This document shows positions 30,660 through 38,039 of a stretch of DNA of 64,000 nucleotides, piece after piece. A program made the translations under genes and the position numbers. Each line of letters begins with the position of its first letter. Positions within the stretch are counted from its first letter, which is position 1. Origin of the DNA: Heterotrichella gracilis (taxonomy: Eukaryota; Sar; Xanthophyceae; Tribonematales; Xanthonemataceae); contig JAULBX010029046.1 of the NCBI GenBank assembly GCA_032358255.1, forward strand, positions 62,001-126,000, written 5' to 3'. Below the pieces are notes generated by a model. The model was not told the origin of the DNA. It did no database searches and saw only the letters and a program-made list of their open reading frames with translations.

Positions 30660-33600
30660 ATGCCACCACAACACTCAGACAGCCTCGAGCCAGAGGCGAC
30701 GAGCCTGACAAAGTATCCGCGGCTGCAAAAGGCTTACAGGATATATTGCCGTTTCAAGCCGCCACCGTCAGGTGAGTGGGTTGACTGTTGCAGAGTGGCG
30801 GTCATCTTGACGCGAATCCACACGTATATGGAAGTGGGGTGCATGCATATGCGTGTGTGCACTCTTTTGCTGCGCTCGAGCCACAGGCGGTTTGTAGGCG
30901 TGACATGGGCTGGTTTACGTACCTGGGTTATTAAGGGAATCAGGACCAAGGCCCTGTTGGGAAGTGGGCGGGTTGGTTCAGTACGCCCCAACGTCCCTGT
31001 GCCAAGCGCTGAACAGTTTCGTACAGTTCCGTTCGTTGCTTGTTGTCCCTCTGCAAGTGTTTAATTAAACAGGTGCTTTTGCACATGTTATCCTTTGTGT
31101 CGGGCGTATCCCTATGACCTGTGCGCACCTGTTTGGCCAATCCTGAGCACGTTGCCACACCTATGTGACTGGAACTTGGGTTGCTCTGCCTGGGGTGTCA
31201 CATTCCAGCCAAGCTCAAGCCAAGCTCAAGCCAAGCTCAGTGGTCCTTACTTTGCTGTGTCATACCTTCTCGTTGTGCCGCCACCCACTGGCTTCGTTAC
31301 ACCACCAGTGAACTTCCTTGTTGAGTGACAGACCATGTGGGCTGCACCCGCTGAGCACGCGCACCCCCCCCACACACCGAAGGCCTTGTTGCTGTGCAGG
31401 CGTGACAGTGAACATAGGGACCGTGGTCATCGCAGCCGCCTTTTATGGAGGTAGGTGGTTTCAGGCAACTTTGTTTGGGGAATGTACAAAAGATATTGAT
31501 AACTTCTAGTGACGGTGTTGCCTGGCCTGGCGGCTAAGCTGAGTCTCTTGCTATCGCAGCGCTGTACTTTTCTATTGGCAGCGCCTTCCTGCCAGGACAC
31601 GCCGCCTTTGCGACTCTGCTGATATGGGCAAGTGCCCAAGTGGGCGCCGAAATCGCGCATTGGGTAAGCCCTCACTACGACCCCTCTCTGGCAATTGTAT
31701 CGGTTTATTGCTGGTTGCAATTCGCTGCCAATATAGTTCCTGGCAAGAATGGTGCTGCTGAACGATTGCTTCGCTAACCCGCCTCTGGGTTTCTTGTCTA
31801 GTTGCGCCTGCCGCGGGTGATTGGCATGCTTGCCGCTGGTATACTGCTGCGCAACATCCCATGGTCAGCCATCGACTCCTTCCCGCCCAGATGGGGCGTT
31901 CAAATGAGAGCAGCAGCGTTGGCGACCATCTTTTTGAGATGTGGATTGGAGCTGGACTTCCAGGCACGTGAAATTTGGCACACGTTTGGACAGCTTGCTC
32001 ACATGCACCCCTGGTGTCACTGCATACCCTTAGGGCGCACATAATGGTTTGAAAGTCTGTCCCAAGCCATGTGTTGCTTGTTCCGCATGCGCAAAACCCA
32101 CCCACGCAGGCCACGCACCTAAGAACAGTCTATAATAAATTGTTGAAACACAATAAATGATAACATTAATTATAATAATTACAAATTTCCTTCAGTGCGC
32201 TCCCTGCCCCACGCAGACCATGAACCTAACAGTAGTTTTGACCATTATGCTTTTAACTTCTTTTATGCAAGCGCAACCCCTCACCACGCAGACCATGAAC
32301 CTGTACAAGTGGCCCGCGCTACGCCTGGCCTTCTTGCCAGGCATGATAGAGGCGTTCACCGACGGCGGGCTGGCCGTGGCCTTTTTCGGCATGCCTGTGC
32401 TCCTTGCTTTCTCCCTGGGATTCATCCTCAAGGCCGTGGGCCCGGGCCTGGTGGTCCCCGCCATGTTCATGCTGCAGAAGAAGGGGCTGGGGACCAGGCG
32501 AGGTGCGTGTGGTTGCACATGGATCTTCCACTGGGACCGCGTTGCATACAGAGGGACTGAATCAACTGGGCATTTAATCTCCATCCACCTTATGGCAGGC
32601 GGGTACTTTGCGCAGCAGTGTGTTTGTTCCCCTGGGCTCTGTACTGGGGGATACAATCATGGGTAGTCATCATCCTCGGTTGCACAGTTGCATCGAGCTC
32701 AACTCTCAGCTCTCAATGCTCAGTGCTCAGTACTCAGGGTTGTAACTGTGGTCAGTGCGCAATGCCTGTGTCGTGGCCGCAGGTGTGTCCTACGTGGTGG
32801 CTCAGTGCTCAGTGCTCGGAACTCAGGGTTGCCATGGTGCTCAGTGCTCAATTCTCCGCAGGTGTGCCCTCCGTGGTTGTGATTGCCGCCAGCTTTGATG
32901 ACATCATCGCCATCACAGGATTCTCCATCTTCATCTCAGTGGCAATTACGGGGCAGGGCGACGTGGGCTGGCAGATAGCAAAGGGGCCCGCACAGGTGGG
33001 TGGGGGGTGCGTCGTGTGGCTGTGTGTAGCACCTCTAGGGGAGGTTGCTACTTTGGGGTGTGACGTATGTGATTTGAATGGGGATTGTGGAAATTCGCAC
33101 TGAGGTGGCAAATAGCCAAAGGATCAGCACAGATAACCGGGCATGCAAGGGCGCCACGTGGCCATGCAAGTTGGGGGTCGCCTGGTTGTAGGCTGCCATA
33201 ATGGCAATGATGGGCATGTCATGAAAGCCATGACCTGCAGTGTTAAGTGCGCATACCCGCAGGCTGATCCGAATAGGTCAATCCTGGTGGGCACCACAGG
33301 TTGCTTCAAACTGGCCAATGGCTCCATTTGCCGTTGTGTCAAGTTGAAGCAGAGTTGCGTTTTTGCCCTATACAACTCCATTGCCTGGTGCAGGTTGTGT
33401 TTGGCATCATCGCCGGCATCCTGGGTGGCATAGTGGTGGGCTGCACCAAGATATTCCAGGGGAGGTACACGCGCCTTTTTGCAATCTACGGAGCCTGTGA
33501 GTACCACCACCGACCCATGTTGCATTCATGGCAGCCGCACGCCCTATTGGCATTGAGCCCCGCGTGTTCCTGGCCTGTGTTCCTGGCCTGTGCTGTGTGC

Positions 33601-36600
33601 ATATGGGCCCGACGTGCTGCTATTTGCAATTTCCACCCCTGGTGCTTAGTGCCCAGCGCCTGACTGTCTGTGGCTGTTTTGCAGGTCCGCTCACCATCCT
33701 CTTCCTGGCATCAAATAAAATGCCTGTTCATTTCCTGCATATGTATAACCAAGTGCTTTGATTTCGCTGCAGGCCTGCTTATCATGTTCTTCCTTGAGCA
33801 CTTTGACATGCTGTCGGGGGGGGCGCTGGGCTCGCTCACGATTGGCCTGGTGGTGTGCTTCATGTGGGAGAGGGTGAGTGGCGGTGGTGCTGGTGGTGGT
33901 GTGCAGATTATGTTTGTGTAGATGTCTGGAAGACTTAGGAGTTTATCGGTCAAGGCAGCTAGCCGGCCGCGCTGTCTGTCCCTTGCATCATGCCATTGAC
34001 CACTCCCCCTGAAACCCCTCTTTCTTTCTCCAGTGCCGTCCCCGCTGCCTGTCCCTGGGACCCCTGCTGTCTGTCCTTGCATATTTCCACTGATCTCCCC
34101 TCCTTGAACCCCCTCCCGTTTCCTCCAGGGCCGTCCCCGCTGCCTGTCCCTGGGACCCAGCGACGAGTACAGTGCTGAGGTGGAGCGCGTGATGGCGGTC
34201 ATCTGGAACTGGATCGCTGAGCCGCTGCTGTTTGGCACCATCGGGGCCTCTATCTACTTCAAGACGCTCACCACAAACATCATCCTCAAGTCGCTGGCCC
34301 TGGTGGTCATTGGTGAGTGTTGAATGCGGGTGGGTTTGGGGTCTAGGATTTAGGGCTTGCCCTTGTCGCTACCAACATCATTTTAAAGTTGCTGGCCCTG
34401 GTGGTCATCGGTGGGTATGCAAGGTGGGCAGGGTTGGGGTTTCTGGTCAGGGTTTTGGCCTGGATCGGTGGTCGGTGTAGGTGCAGGGCTAGTGGGGCTG
34501 CAGCACGATGCAGCATCCACTTATATGGTGCAATTGCTCTCTGCACCACCAAGGAGCAGCAAAGTTTATATAGGACGGTGGCGCAAACTGGAGTCCTCTC
34601 CTGTTTAATGAGCTGCTTAGCAAGTCCCTGTCAGCGTAGGACTGTGGTGGACAAGTGCATGGCGGTGGCAATAACGAGTGTGGTTGAAAGTGACCGGCGT
34701 ATGCACCCAGTAAGCGAAATGCAGGCCATTGCTCACCTGGCGTACCCTCCCCCTCCCTGCAGGCGTGACGCTGCGCATCATCGCCACCTTCATTGCGCAG
34801 TTTACTATAAACCCTAAACCCTGACCCTAAACCCTGCAGGCGTGACGCTGCGCATCATCGCCACTTTCCTTGTGCAGTTTACCATAAACCCTAAACCCTG
34901 ATCCCAAACCCTGCAGGTGTGACGCTGCGCATCATCGCCACCTTCATTGTCATGTCGGGCCTGCACTACAGCTTCAAGGAGCGCATGTTCTTCGCCATTG
35001 GATGGACACCAAAGGCAACGGTGCAGGTGCGGGAAAACCCTAAACCGTAAATCCTAAGGCAATGGTGCAGGTGTGGGAGAACCTGTGCTGTCCCTCATGT
35101 GCGATATACCGCATACATGGCTTGTCACTGTTAGGGCTGCATGGCGCCCATGCACCATCCGATGCATGTTGCGGAGCACGGGTGCGGCATTACCACCACC
35201 CAAATTCTCCACATTCACAGATAATGATGCCTGTGCTTCCAGTTTAGGGTTCAGGGTGTGCAAGCCAATGCTGAGCGATCAGGATTCTTTCTTTTATTGT
35301 GCAAAAAGCCCGCGCTGTACGACAACCCTGGGCACCCTTCCACACCCCAGCAGGACAACAGTATAACAGAATAATGACGAAGAGCCCAGCCCACCTTTTC
35401 CCTCTTTTCCTCCCGGCAGGCTGCCCTTGCCTCCTTCTTCCTGCAGCTTATCGTGAAGTACAACCAGATTAACAGAATAATGATGAAAAGCCCAGCCCAC
35501 CTTCTTCCCACTTTCCCTCCCCGCAGGCCGCCCTTGCCTCCTTCCCCCTGCAGCTCATCGTGAAGTACAAGCAGGACGAGCCCAACTACAAGCAGTGGCT
35601 GGAATGGGGCAACGCCTGCCTCACCACCGCCATCTTTGCAATCATCGTGTGCGGAACGCTGGGCACGCTGGCCATCTACTGGACCGCATCCACGCTGCTG
35701 GGCAAAGATGAGGTGGGTGGTTGCTACGGGGGAAATGGGTGGGTGAGGTGGGGGAAGCGAGTGCTGGGGGGCAATGGGTGGATGAGGTGGGGGGAGGGGG
35801 GTCGATGCAGGGCAGGGTGCGCGCTGCTGGGCGCGGTGAGGTGTGAGGGTGGGTGGGCGAGATGGGGGAAGTGGGTGCGTAAGGTGGGGGAATTGGGTGG
35901 GTGAGGTGGGGGAAGCGAGTGGTGGGGGAAATGGGTCGGTGAGGTGGGGGAAGCGAATGGATGTGGGTGGGTGGGGGAAATGGGTCGGTGAGGTGGGGGA
36001 AGCGAATGGATGTGGGTGGGTGGGGGTGAGGTGGTGGGCGGGTGGGTAGGCTGTGCAGTGCAGGGTGCACGCTGCTGGGGAAGAAGGTGGTAGGTGGGCG
36101 GGTGGCTTGGGCTGTGCTGGACAGGGTGCGCGCTGCTGCGGGCCGGGACAGGGCTGGCGTGTCATTGGCCCGTTTGGACCAATACACTTTTCCATTTGTG
36201 CCCCTCCCTGTGAAGGCAGAAAATATGTGTATCTGAGGGGGATTACCCATCGCAATTGTATAAATATGATACTCTAAGCCTTGAACCCTACACCCTTGCT
36301 TGTGCAGGAGGAGGATGGCAAGTCTGGTGGCCCCGAGGTGGAGCCCACCCCCAGCCAGGTGCACGACATAGGGGACAAGGAGCAGGTGGCGGGGGGGCCG
36401 GCGCAGGCACGCAGGGCGCGGCGCATGAGCAGGGACGCCAACGCATACAGAATGTACGTCGGGCGGGGCTGGCTTGGGTCGGTGCACGTGGTGGCTGCAT
36501 GTGTTGGCTGCATGTGTTGGCTTGCATCTCATGTTGAGATACTCATTACTTGGCGTTTGATTGGGGAGGCGTTGCATGTGATGGCTGCATCTGTAGGTGG

Positions 36601-38039
36601 CGAGTGCATGTGATCACTCCAACATTGCCTACACGTGCAAGGGGATTTCCTTGTGGGGAAGGTTGTGGGTAGGGTGTTGAGCAGCATTGCCTTGCATTGG
36701 ATGGAGGGGGGTGCCCGGTCGGACCCATAGGGGGTGTGCCAAAATGTGGGGCAAATGCCGCCAGCCAGGTGGAATCGAACCACTGGGCCTCTCGGCCCCT
36801 ACGGGTTTGAAGCCCGCACCCAACACCAGTCAGGGTCAGTCCGGCATGGTGAAATTGAGAAAATTCAGAAATGTTGAGATTTTGGGGGGCACAGGATTTG
36901 AACCCACGACCTGCCAGTTACAGTGGTCATCTGGTGCACAAATAGGGAATTACTGCTGATCAAGTCCCAACCTGACAACTGTATCCATTGCTTCTTTGCA
37001 TTTTTCAACTATGTCGTGGGCAAATTGGGTGCAGCTCCCATTGCCACAGCCCTGCCCTCCTCCACTGCCGCTTGTCACAAAAAACCCTTACCTAGGGTAT
37101 TCAGGGTTTCTATGTTAGGGTGTAGCGACGGCCTCCACCAAGCTACCCCCCACTCCCTGCCCACCGCCCACCCACCCAACCCCACCCCCTGCCTGCAGCC
37201 ACGAGCAGAGCGATGCCGAGTACCACTCCAACCTTGAGATCATCGATGAGTACTTTGACAACATTGAGCAGCTGCTGGAGCTGGTGGAGAGCAAAGGGGT
37301 GGGCGGCGAGGTGGTGGGCAACGTGTGCAAGGCCATTCGGAGCAAGCAGGAGGTGAGGGGGGTGGCATGGGTGGGGTGGCATGGGTGCAGCAGTGTGGGG
37401 GTTAGGAGGGGGGGGGTCATGGTTGCCAACAGCAGCTGCTGCTGCATGGGGTATGAGTGTGTGCATTCTTCTCTTTTTCTTTGTGTGAAAAACTTAAAAG
37501 TCTTTTCCAGGGCCCGCATGCAAGTGGTTGATGCACCATCCCTTCCTTTCCCCCCACACTACACCAAAATATCACATTACGGTACACAGGAATACGTGTG
37601 ACATTACTGCAGCCTCATTTCCATCAAGTATTTAGATGGATAAAGAAATAAAAGTGCATATGTTGTTTAGGTTTACTAAAACAATCAATGACAGAAAAGT
37701 GACTGTTCTTCCCCTTCCCCGCAGCACCTTGAGCAGCACATGGGCCCCAAGGAGCTGACGGTGCGCCAGATGTTCCACCGCGCGGCCCAGGAGGCCCTGC
37801 TAGCCAACCACCTGCAGGAGGTGGCGCTGGATGGCGGGGGCCTGGAGGAGGGGGTGGGGGGCATGGTGGGCGGCAGCACGCTGCGCGACAGCACGCTGCG
37901 GGCCAAGAGCGCGCCTTCGCTGCTGCCATACAATGGGTCAGGCGACGACAGCGATGAGGATGTGGGGGGGGAGAGGGCGGGGCTGCAGGGGGCTAGGAAG
38001 CGTGGGGTGTCGCGCGAGGGCAGTGCGCATGGGCCTTAG
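30660..38039 (+). CDS. SLC9B/NHA-type cation/proton antiporter (CPA2), 14 exons
   Basis: Membrane antiporter exchanging Na+ (or K+/Li+) for H+. Exons: 30660-30771, 31400-31450, 31560-31663, 31802-31963, 32292-32502, 32862-32995, 33394-33496, 33773-33873, 34129-34312, 34917-35026, 35527-35712, 36308-36453, 37199-37352, 37725-38039. They join in frame to 690 residues, longer than the roughly 540 of animal SLC9B2. Key signatures are LRCGLELD (to about residue 141) and the paired ion-binding aspartates in ASFDDIIAITGF (Asp226, Asp227). Several hydrophobic helices follow, such as VVFGIIAGILGGIVVG and AIIVCGTLGTLAIYW. The C-terminal 230 residues are a charged, low-complexity cytosolic tail. Intron 4 is GC-AG. 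Introns hold repeated copies of exon edges, and intron 12 holds an antisense tRNA-Sec. The membrane targeted and the transported ion cannot be read from the sequence. Confidence 0.92.
31202..31234 (+). repeat. 11-bp tandem repeat in antiporter intron 1
   Basis: CCAAGCTCAAG is repeated almost three times in tandem. No coding signal overlaps it. Confidence 0.7.
31964..32291 (+). other. Non-canonical GC-AG intron (antiporter intron 4)
   Basis: The intron begins GCACGTG after exon 4 (ending LELDFQ) and ends CCACGCAG before TMNLYKW. No GT donor nearby preserves frame. The joined peptide, as I recall animal NHA2, aligns with it without a gap from the conserved L-D to the M-E-A motif, so the GC donor is well supported. 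Confidence 0.8.
32209..32302 (+). repeat. Echo of exon 5 start: acceptor plus first codons, 75 bp upstream
   Basis: CCACGCAGACCATGAACCT occurs at 32209-32227 and again at 32284-32302, where it is the real acceptor and start of exon 5. The upstream copy has an equally good AG acceptor but then diverges. Confidence 0.85.
32700..32882 (+). repeat. CTCAGTGCTCAG repeats and echo of exon 6 start
   Basis: The intron carries many copies of CTCAGTGCT. Within them GCAGGTGTGTCCTACGTGGT (from 32779) copies the true acceptor and start of exon 6, GCAGGTGTGCCCTCCGTGGT (from 32858), 79 bp upstream with two mismatches in 20. A stretch around AACTCAGGGTTG is also duplicated, so the unit includes intron sequence. 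Confidence 0.8.
32965..33138 (+). repeat. Echo of exon 6 end in the following intron
   Basis: The end of exon 6 (TGGCAGATAGCAAAGGGGCC then CGCACAG and donor) is partly copied about 137 bp downstream at 33105-33135, as TGGCAAATAGCCAAAGGATC then AGCACAG. The copy is diverged and its GT donor is lost. Confidence 0.6.
33684..33800 (+). repeat. Diverged echo of exon 8 start
   Basis: At 33684 GCAGGTCCGCTCACC begins a stretch that could read PLTILFLAS. The real exon 8, from 33773, reads LLIMFFLEH after GCAGGCCTGCTTATC. About two thirds of 26 positions match. It could be an old duplicated exon start or a decoy acceptor; the copy has no in-phase continuation. Confidence 0.5.
33971..34160 (+). repeat. 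95-bp tandem duplication spanning acceptor and start of exon 9
   Basis: The unit starting GCTGTCTGTC at 33971 recurs at 34066. It covers the end of intron 8 and the first 30 bases of exon 9 (34129 onward, CCGTCCCCGCTGCCTGTCCC). The copied exon start at 34034 matches the real one at 28 or more of 30 positions and has its own pyrimidine-rich CAG acceptor. Confidence 0.9.
34268..34415 (+). repeat. Echo of exon 9 end and donor, 98 bp downstream
   Basis: The real exon 9 end (GCTGGCCCTGGTGGTCATTG then GTGAGT, ending 34312) is copied at about 34369-34415 as GCTGGCCCTGGTGGTCATCG then GTGGGT. The copy reaches back through ACCAACATCATTTTAAAG, similar to the exon's ACAAACATCATCCTCAAG. It provides a second GT donor. 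Confidence 0.85.
34758..34950 (+). repeat. Exact 77-bp-period triplication of acceptor plus exon 10 start with CCCTAAA filler
   Basis: TGCAGGCGTGACGCTGCGCA occurs at 34758 and 34835, and at 34912 as the true exon 10 boundary (TGCAGGTGTGACGCTGCGCA). All three continue ATCATCGCCAC. Copies one and two end in GCAGTTTAC(T/C)ATAAACCCTAAACCCTGA before the next acceptor, so telomere-like filler joins the units. Only the third copy continues as the conserved reading frame (GVTLRIIATFIVMSG); the others would stop soon after. Confidence 0.95.
35012..35084 (+). repeat. Echo of exon 10 end and donor, 44 bp downstream, with telomere-like spacer
   Basis: Exon 10 ends AAGGCAACGGTGCAG at 35026, followed by GTGCGGGAAAACCC. 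After ACCCTAAACCGTAAATCCT the same phrase returns as AAGGCAATGGTGCAG, then GTGTGGGAGAACC (to 35084). Copied exon edge, copied donor and heptamer-like filler occur together. Confidence 0.85.
35365..35576 (+). repeat. 106-bp tandem duplication spanning acceptor and start of exon 11
   Basis: The unit beginning AACAGAATAATGA starts at 35365 and again at 35471. Both copies hold a pyrimidine-rich tract, a GGCAG or CGCAG acceptor and the first ~50 bases of exon 11. The real exon from 35527 reads AALASFPLQLIVKYKQDE; the copy reads AALASFFLQLIVKYNQ. The junction falls inside exon sequence, so the duplication includes about half intron and half exon. Confidence 0.92.
35713..36110 (+). repeat. G-rich minisatellite in antiporter intron 11
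   Basis: Variants of GAGGTGGGGGAAGCGAATGG and GGGTGGGTGGGGGAAATGGG repeat in tandem, with a roughly 49-bp unit clearest at 35940-36035. The end of exon 11 (ACGCTGCTGGGCAAAGATGAG) is echoed near 36067 as ACGCTGCTGGGGAAGAAGG, and in part near 35820 and 36130. The array may have grown from exon-end copies. It creates long meaningless open frames on the minus strand. Confidence 0.8.
36741..36744 (-). terminator. Putative Pol III terminator of tRNA-Sec
   Basis: A TTTT run on the minus strand lies 15 bases beyond the tRNA 3' end; Pol III usually stops at four or more T. Confidence 0.55.
36759..36845 (-). tRNA. trnSec(TCA): tRNA-Sec (selenocysteine, anticodon TCA), antisense inside antiporter intron 12
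   Basis: The 87-base length equals the eukaryotic tRNA-Sec length. The anticodon arm is GGG-CTTCAAA-CCC with anticodon TCA. The D arm has CCC TGACTGGTGTT GGG. The long variable arm is a GC hairpin (GGGCC GAGA GGCCC). The 4-bp T stem is GTGG-TTCGATT-CCAC. The acceptor stem is of the long 9-bp type: positions 1-5 and 7 pair, with a T-T at position 8 as in animal tRNA-Sec and an A-G mismatch at 6. The discriminator is G. It lets in-frame UGA be read as selenocysteine in selenoproteins. A tRNA-Ser is excluded by the anticodon and the 9/4 stem geometry. Confidence 0.9.

Follow-up and report, generated by a model that had tools for sequence, protein, structure and literature searches.

In the genome represented by contig JAULBX010029046.1 (assembly GCA_032358255.1, deposited as Heterotrichella gracilis), about one in 11 sampled exon edges carries a recognizable local duplicate of itself, and these duplicates are associated with telomeric repeats. 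We analyzed a 64,000-nucleotide stretch of this contig (positions 62,001 to 126,000; hereafter the window, on which positions below are numbered), in which an SLC9B/NHA2-type Na+/H+ antiporter gene occupies 30660–38039 on the plus strand, together with a sample of the remaining assembly. Local duplication of short segments is a known kind of event; what appears to be new is its excess at splice junctions and its telomeric association.

For each exon edge of the antiporter gene, 30 exonic and 10 intronic nucleotides were aligned to the edge's own intron, with 300 dinucleotide shuffles, 12 other introns and the reverse complement serving as controls. For ten of the 26 edges, the adjoining intron contains a significant copy, each at the floor of the P value (1/301). 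All ten also outscore every other intron of the gene, which the reverse complement did once. A preliminary description of this DNA had reported at least nine copied exon edges at ten named places, and the ten significant copies lie at exactly those places; as it stated, both 5′ and 3′ exon edges are among them. The splice junction is included in nine of the ten copies, while the copy at 33106 stops exactly at the junction. Identity ranges from 19/19 down to 21/27, and this differing divergence bears out the earlier suggestion that copies arose repeatedly.

The copied elements all lie on the plus strand. Exon starts, together with their acceptors, are found upstream of the true edge: exon 5 at 32209–32227 (75 bp upstream, 19/19, with a weaker additional copy at 32101–32129), exon 6 at 32777–32808 (79 bp, 26/31), exon 8 at 33680–33706 (∼90 bp, 21/27), exon 9 at 34025–34063 (95 bp, 37/39) and exon 11 at 35410–35448 (107 bp, 35/39). 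The start and acceptor of exon 10 occur twice more within 34755–34908, in 77-bp units; these copies, at 34755–34792 and from 34832, are separated from the true edge by 154 and 77 bp, with telomere-like AAACCCT repeats between copies. The end of exon 6 is copied in intron 6 at 33106–33132 (21/27). Exon ends copied with their donors are those of exon 9 at 34386–34416 (98 bp downstream, 28/31), exon 10 at 35053–35078 (44 bp, 23/26, with AAACCCTAAA in the spacer) and exon 11 at 36068–36097 (377 bp, 24/30). We regard the last of these as the weakest of the ten because it is so distant and has a G-rich minisatellite next to it. Tandem Repeats Finder reports three of the pairs as head-to-tail tandems, with periods of 95 (exon 9 start, 33971–34158), 77 (exon 10 start) and 107 (exon 11 start, 35364–35574). 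The distances of 44–140 bp given in the preliminary description do not hold for the copy at 36.07 kb or the more distant one at 34.76 kb. What it called local copies of the boundary would be better termed local duplications of a ∼100-bp segment that includes the boundary. The minisatellite mentioned above, in intron 11, extends from 35728 to 36046 with periods of 21–49 bp.

The antiporter gene was identified by its Pfam family (PF00999) and a PDB match to exchanger 9B2. Its 14 exons (30660–30771, 31400–31450, 31560–31663, 31802–31963, 32292–32502, 32862–32995, 33394–33496, 33773–33873, 34129–34312, 34917–35026, 35527–35712, 36308–36453, 37199–37352 and 37725–38039) join to 2073 nt with a single open frame of 690 amino acids. 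Each junction is covered by 20 to 54 of 54 homologue alignments. At junctions 1–10 and 13 these contain few or no gaps, with junction 6 showing the most (0.6 additional residues per homologue); 5–7 additional residues are present in homologues at junctions 11 and 12. The statement that only the true exons keep the conserved frame is supported. The closest proteins are those of Tetradesmus (best) and Auxenochlorella, at 49–53% identity, followed by others. Intron 4 begins with an apparent GC donor (31963/31964, CAG/GCACGT). It is needed to keep the frame open, and the homologues run uninterrupted across this junction.

The assembly comprises 68.5 Mb in 903 contigs, of which ∼264 kb were examined: the window and 24 pieces of 10 kb, less four that were dropped. 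Genes were predicted with a home-made finder tuned on the antiporter gene, the best-fitting of six parameter settings being kept; on that gene it predicts 13 exons and recovers 12 of the 14 exactly, a result that, given the tuning, is no independent test. Of four predicted proteins or protein parts, three match Pfam families (pyruvate kinase, zinc-binding dehydrogenase and protein kinase) and the fourth matches none. Gene models with a weak coding score were discarded, including one that spans ∼1.7–28 kb of the window, as were introns of <60 or >2500 bp and those with adjoining exons of <30 nt. This left 254 introns.

In genes other than the antiporter, copies were found for 42/242 5′ edges and 32/242 3′ edges (z over 5), compared to 1/242 and 0/242 for the reverse complement and, likewise, 1/242 and 0/242 for another intron. 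Exon interiors gave 6/170 and 3/176, and intron middles 16/196. Five pieces had been added beside copy-rich ones. When these and the antiporter are left out (unselected pieces; 197 introns, 394 edges), copies remain at 18/197 5′ and 17/197 3′ edges, or 35/394 (8.9%), with 1/197 and 0/197 for both the reverse complement and foreign introns. The excess of edge copies is real and is present at many loci of the sampled genome; the check proposed in the preliminary description, in which intron similarity to the flanking exon is scored against shuffled introns, reveals it in the antiporter gene, and the effect persists in the 264-kb sample. The rate of copying differs by gene, with copies in 6 of the 12 introns of the antiporter as modelled. 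Minus-strand gene models that adjoin the antiporter (39206–64000) have edge copies in 0 of 34 usable introns. As anticipated, the process gives rise to decoy splice sites, and the median intron length is 393 bp with copies versus 283 bp without, but longer introns also give more room for copies.

The telomere repeat of this genome is presumably TTTAGGG, because arrays of it stand at the starts of eight contigs: 22 contigs contain a 38-nt array, which is placed within bases 1–7 in seven of them and at base 138 in one. Exact 17-mers of this repeat number 2437 genome-wide (overlaps and contig-end arrays counted), compared to one for the reversed control. Telomeric nine-mers occur at 0.07 per kb in exons versus 5.6 per kb in introns. 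The repeat is found in 37/68 introns with an edge copy versus 33/186 without (locus-stratified z of 4.5), and it lies within the spans of 45 of 103 local duplications, while random spans at the same loci average 17.6. We also compared the two flanks of each intronic telomere run after masking telomere-like words. Flanks are repeated at 39/115 runs, compared to 18/368 control points in run-free introns and 22/242 points elsewhere in run-bearing introns; the corresponding figures for unselected pieces are 18/73 versus 11/318 and 8/175. In 17 of 22 listed cases of repeated flanks, the telomere run is ≤24 nt from both copies. At least five donors run directly into telomere repeat, and the ends of the copies are blurred by decay. 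Near acceptors, telomere repeats are in the C-rich sense 21 times versus twice in the G-rich sense, an orientation that may reflect only selection on the pyrimidine tract.

The 103 duplications come from a scan in which those of low complexity, short length or low score were dropped. Of the 103, 58 span a predicted junction, two touch one, 19 are intronic, one is exonic, 16 are outside predicted genes and seven are mixed. Among the 93 that do not overlap, the spacing is 80–119 bp in 39, with a second shoulder at 140–239 bp (35 cases) and two near 300 bp; none of the 103 has a spacing of 250–299 bp, in a scan that reached 420. Some places hold three or more copies, and a middle copy is still visible in 10 of the 36 duplications with a spacing of 150–250 bp and a spacer of ≥40 bp (z over 5). 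We measured the 79 edge pairs that passed both thresholds. Their homologous part comprises, as medians, 41 exonic and 12 intronic nt; the median spacer is 57 nt and the median shift 107 nt. Identity over the many loci runs from near identity down to ∼72%, and the splice dinucleotide is kept in most copies (GT in 32/43, AG in 29/36). Mismatches at codon positions 1, 2 and 3 amount to 10.8, 9.8 and 16.2%, a pattern near free drift that tends in the direction to be expected of an unconstrained intronic copy paired with an exon under selection. We had considered whether the preponderance of exonic sequence in the copies reflects a rule of the copying process, and dropped this idea, as simulation shows that decay explains most of it.

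The preference for junctions was assessed by placing each duplication at random in its own gene, with simulated detection weights of 0.56 and 0.35. Random placement puts 17.7 duplications at junctions, 49.5 in introns and 14.8 in exons. Among the 78 junction-plus-intron duplications in genes (a tally that leaves out three mixed and one exonic), 59 span or touch a junction, compared to an expected 36.5%. For the originally chosen pieces and the window, the count is 33/44 (30/38 without the antiporter; 36% expected), and for pairs of ≥90% identity it is 19/25 (again 36% expected).

The account we favor, and to which we give about an even chance of being right, is that fill-in and joining of staggered breaks, in some cases with telomeric sequence added as filler, create the duplications, and that selection retains those outcomes in which one splice border stays intact. 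A staggered break near an exon edge would consist of two opposite-strand nicks some tens of bp apart, and both overhangs would be filled in. Telomerase or a related telomere-end activity would sometimes add TTTAGGG to the exposed 3′ end, after which end joining would produce the arrangement copy–filler–copy. Wholly exonic events would be removed by selection, while junction-spanning events would survive because one intact splice border still yields the old protein; the spare border would become a decoy and then fade. Each event might add very roughly 100 bp to the intron. The junction preference could stem from an excess of breaks at exon edges or of repair priming near them; this step is the least certain. 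The break, its fill-in, the part played by telomerase and the reason for the junction preference are all inferred. An origin in repair had been suggested in the preliminary description, and the idea fits; it overlooked the telomeric repeats beside and between the copies, which are to us the most telling clue. A farther-reaching proposal strikes us as doubtful, namely that telomerase-assisted repair of breaks clustering at exon–intron borders is a main, continuing source of intron growth and decoys; here GGG (donor strand) or CCC (acceptor strand) at splice sites may help prime the telomere repeat.

Several observations weigh against fill-in with telomeric filler, and some of them are what one would expect if plain, untargeted short tandem duplication, by replication slippage or template switching, simply occurred at a high rate, with exonic events purged, junction pairs kept visible by exon constraint and telomere repeats present as bystanders. 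This explanation is possible, and we take it seriously, without expecting it to be correct. Repeats are not confined to exon edges: intron middles repeat within their own intron at 10/159 (6.3%) in unselected pieces, only a little less often than exon edges do there (8.9%), and exon edges are slightly more visible because one copy is constrained. Several pairs stand head to tail with little or no spacer, as do the antiporter tandems described above. When plain tandem duplication with decay is simulated, the exon and intron extents resemble those of older pairs, and most of their bias toward exonic sequence is recovered. More than half of the duplications lack a telomere repeat in their span, and in the antiporter the repeat is present in only 2 of the 12 modelled introns. 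Of the 79 edge pairs, 18 have the repeat in their spacer and nine have it within the 50 bp past the decoy, and the contrast in telomeric nine-mers is only moderate (16.1 per kb in the spacer versus 10.5 beyond the decoy). This comparison has lowered our confidence, and the telomere repeat could mark fragile sites instead of being filler. The P values for the junction excess (2e-12 and, for the originally chosen pieces, 1e-7) are both too small, because events cluster by gene and gene models are imperfect, although the direction is steady; the excess also depends on the home-made gene finder, which was tuned on the antiporter. On the other side, plain duplication does not readily account for the junctional share, which exceeds expectation in the full set and in the unselected pieces despite the detection weights, or for telomere clusters that lie between repeated flanks far above controls. 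Moreover, the youngest pairs (identity ≥0.92, n = 29) have an unduplicated spacer with a median of 50 nt, compared to 0–12 in the simulation.

The remaining explanations seem to us much less probable. Duplicates kept for function, as alternative exon edges or splice sites for alternative splicing, would explain why GT or AG persists in most decoys, and among an initial 19 pairs the third codon position does differ most (7.9, 4.9 and 15.8% mismatches at positions 1, 2 and 3), a pattern less plainly neutral that also counts against our preferred account. In the 79 pairs, though, mismatches at positions 1 and 2 are about two thirds as frequent as at position 3, and 13 of the 14 exonic gaps in the initial 19 pairs are not multiples of three and so would shift the frame. 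In addition, at least two of the antiporter copies are noncoding: that at 34.76 kb reaches a stop, and that at 35.41 kb lacks a proline that the true exon 11 shares with 52/58 homologues. We therefore set functional duplicates aside as improbable. An insertion near splice sites by a mobile element or introner, with target duplication, would resemble the copy–filler–copy arrangement, and yet among 57 spacers of ≥45 bp, 30 have no match elsewhere in the 264-kb sample and 21 match nearby sequence. The eight that match distant sequence (two of which also match nearby) do so through stretches that are 70–100% telomere-like. Telomere-like sequence is all that the spacers have in common; none of the 57 belongs to a dispersed family within the sample, and the link to introners proposed in the preliminary description finds no support there. 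The duplications measure tens of bp, compared to 3–9 bp in some introner families (PMC9860276), and intron ends are unlike the opposite exons. This makes a mobile element very improbable. An assembly artefact might be considered, given 903 contigs; but copies occur at many loci with the wide range of identity noted above, while assembly errors would presumably yield identical copies as a rule, and we find this origin scarcely credible.

The preliminary description knew of no named class for these copies, yet close neighbors exist in tandem duplications from staggered-break fill-in and in the insertion of telomeric repeats at breaks. Fill-in at breaks by CST-Pol alpha-primase, together with nonhomologous end joining, yields small tandem duplications in cells of human and mouse (PMC8355091). 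The present cases share with them short, local, direct duplications of tens of bp with neighboring copies and the implication of a telomere-end complex, a break origin being inferred here. They differ in affecting ∼9% of sampled exon edges, in their junction excess and in the telomere repeats that are often near or between copies. In mammals, telomeric repeats enter breaks, a minority with target duplication; in two reports (PMC2246262, PMC7215372), plain target duplication is recorded at 3/66 interstitial telomeric loci in horse, 6/130 in rodent and 4/25 in primate. Like those loci, the introns studied here contain short internal runs of the genome's own presumed telomere repeat, some with duplicated flanks. 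Here, in contrast, flanks are repeated at as many as 39 of 115 intronic clusters and many duplications straddle splice sites. Introners (PMC9860276) likewise involve repeated events in introns and splice sites and are common in algae; here the spacers have no common element family in the sample, and copies were sought and found only locally.

Duplication-based intron gain also involves a tandem duplication that doubles splice signals within a gene, whereas here it is existing introns that grow. The signature of a new intron formed in this manner, a head resembling the downstream exon and a tail resembling the upstream exon, was seen in 0 and 1 of 247 introns, respectively, and in none for both ends, and such gain was rejected on this basis. 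Related themes have reportedly been treated by Gao and Lynch in 2009 (internal gene duplication, as cited in PMC4974935), by Vaughn and Bennetzen (rice duplications) and by Schiml and colleagues (paired nicks). In the open-licence literature that we searched, at the level of listings and the starts of abstracts, we found no description of junction duplications with a telomeric association.

The growth of introns is commonly ascribed to transposons and to small insertions at random. With the duplications described here, intron growth, the origin of cryptic splice sites and the probable traces of break repair become readable and datable in one genome. They also provide a natural test of how far the spliceosome tolerates duplicated splice sites, and of telomere-end activity at internal breaks in green algae. 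For annotation they carry a warning, since gene finders may mistake decoys for exons. In a kinase-like gene (L024:5740–6209, contig C50), our finder took an exon edge present in several copies for a series of exons, and KLYKELGMTEEAPK, repeated in that prediction, represents either misread decoys or a real in-frame repeat.

The organism is likely, though not certainly, a trebouxiophyte-like green alga. Best matches of its beta-adaptin, at 50–59% identity, are to Myrmecia, Trebouxia, Botrbrau1 (a JGI entry, which we take to be Botryococcus) and Elliptochloris, while the antiporter is closest to Tetradesmus. The four pieces dropped from the sample (L002, L005, L017 and L018, from contig C1, of 894 kb, and contig C100) look bacterial because of their GC content of 0.33–0.36 and open stretches of up to 1403 codons, and may have come into the assembly from a contaminant or from a bacterium associated with the alga. 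Finally, intron 12 of the antiporter gene contains, on the opposite strand, a selenocysteine tRNA gene (36760–36845, minus strand), identified by RF01852 (77.1 bits) and by ARAGORN as tRNA-SeC with anticodon tca.

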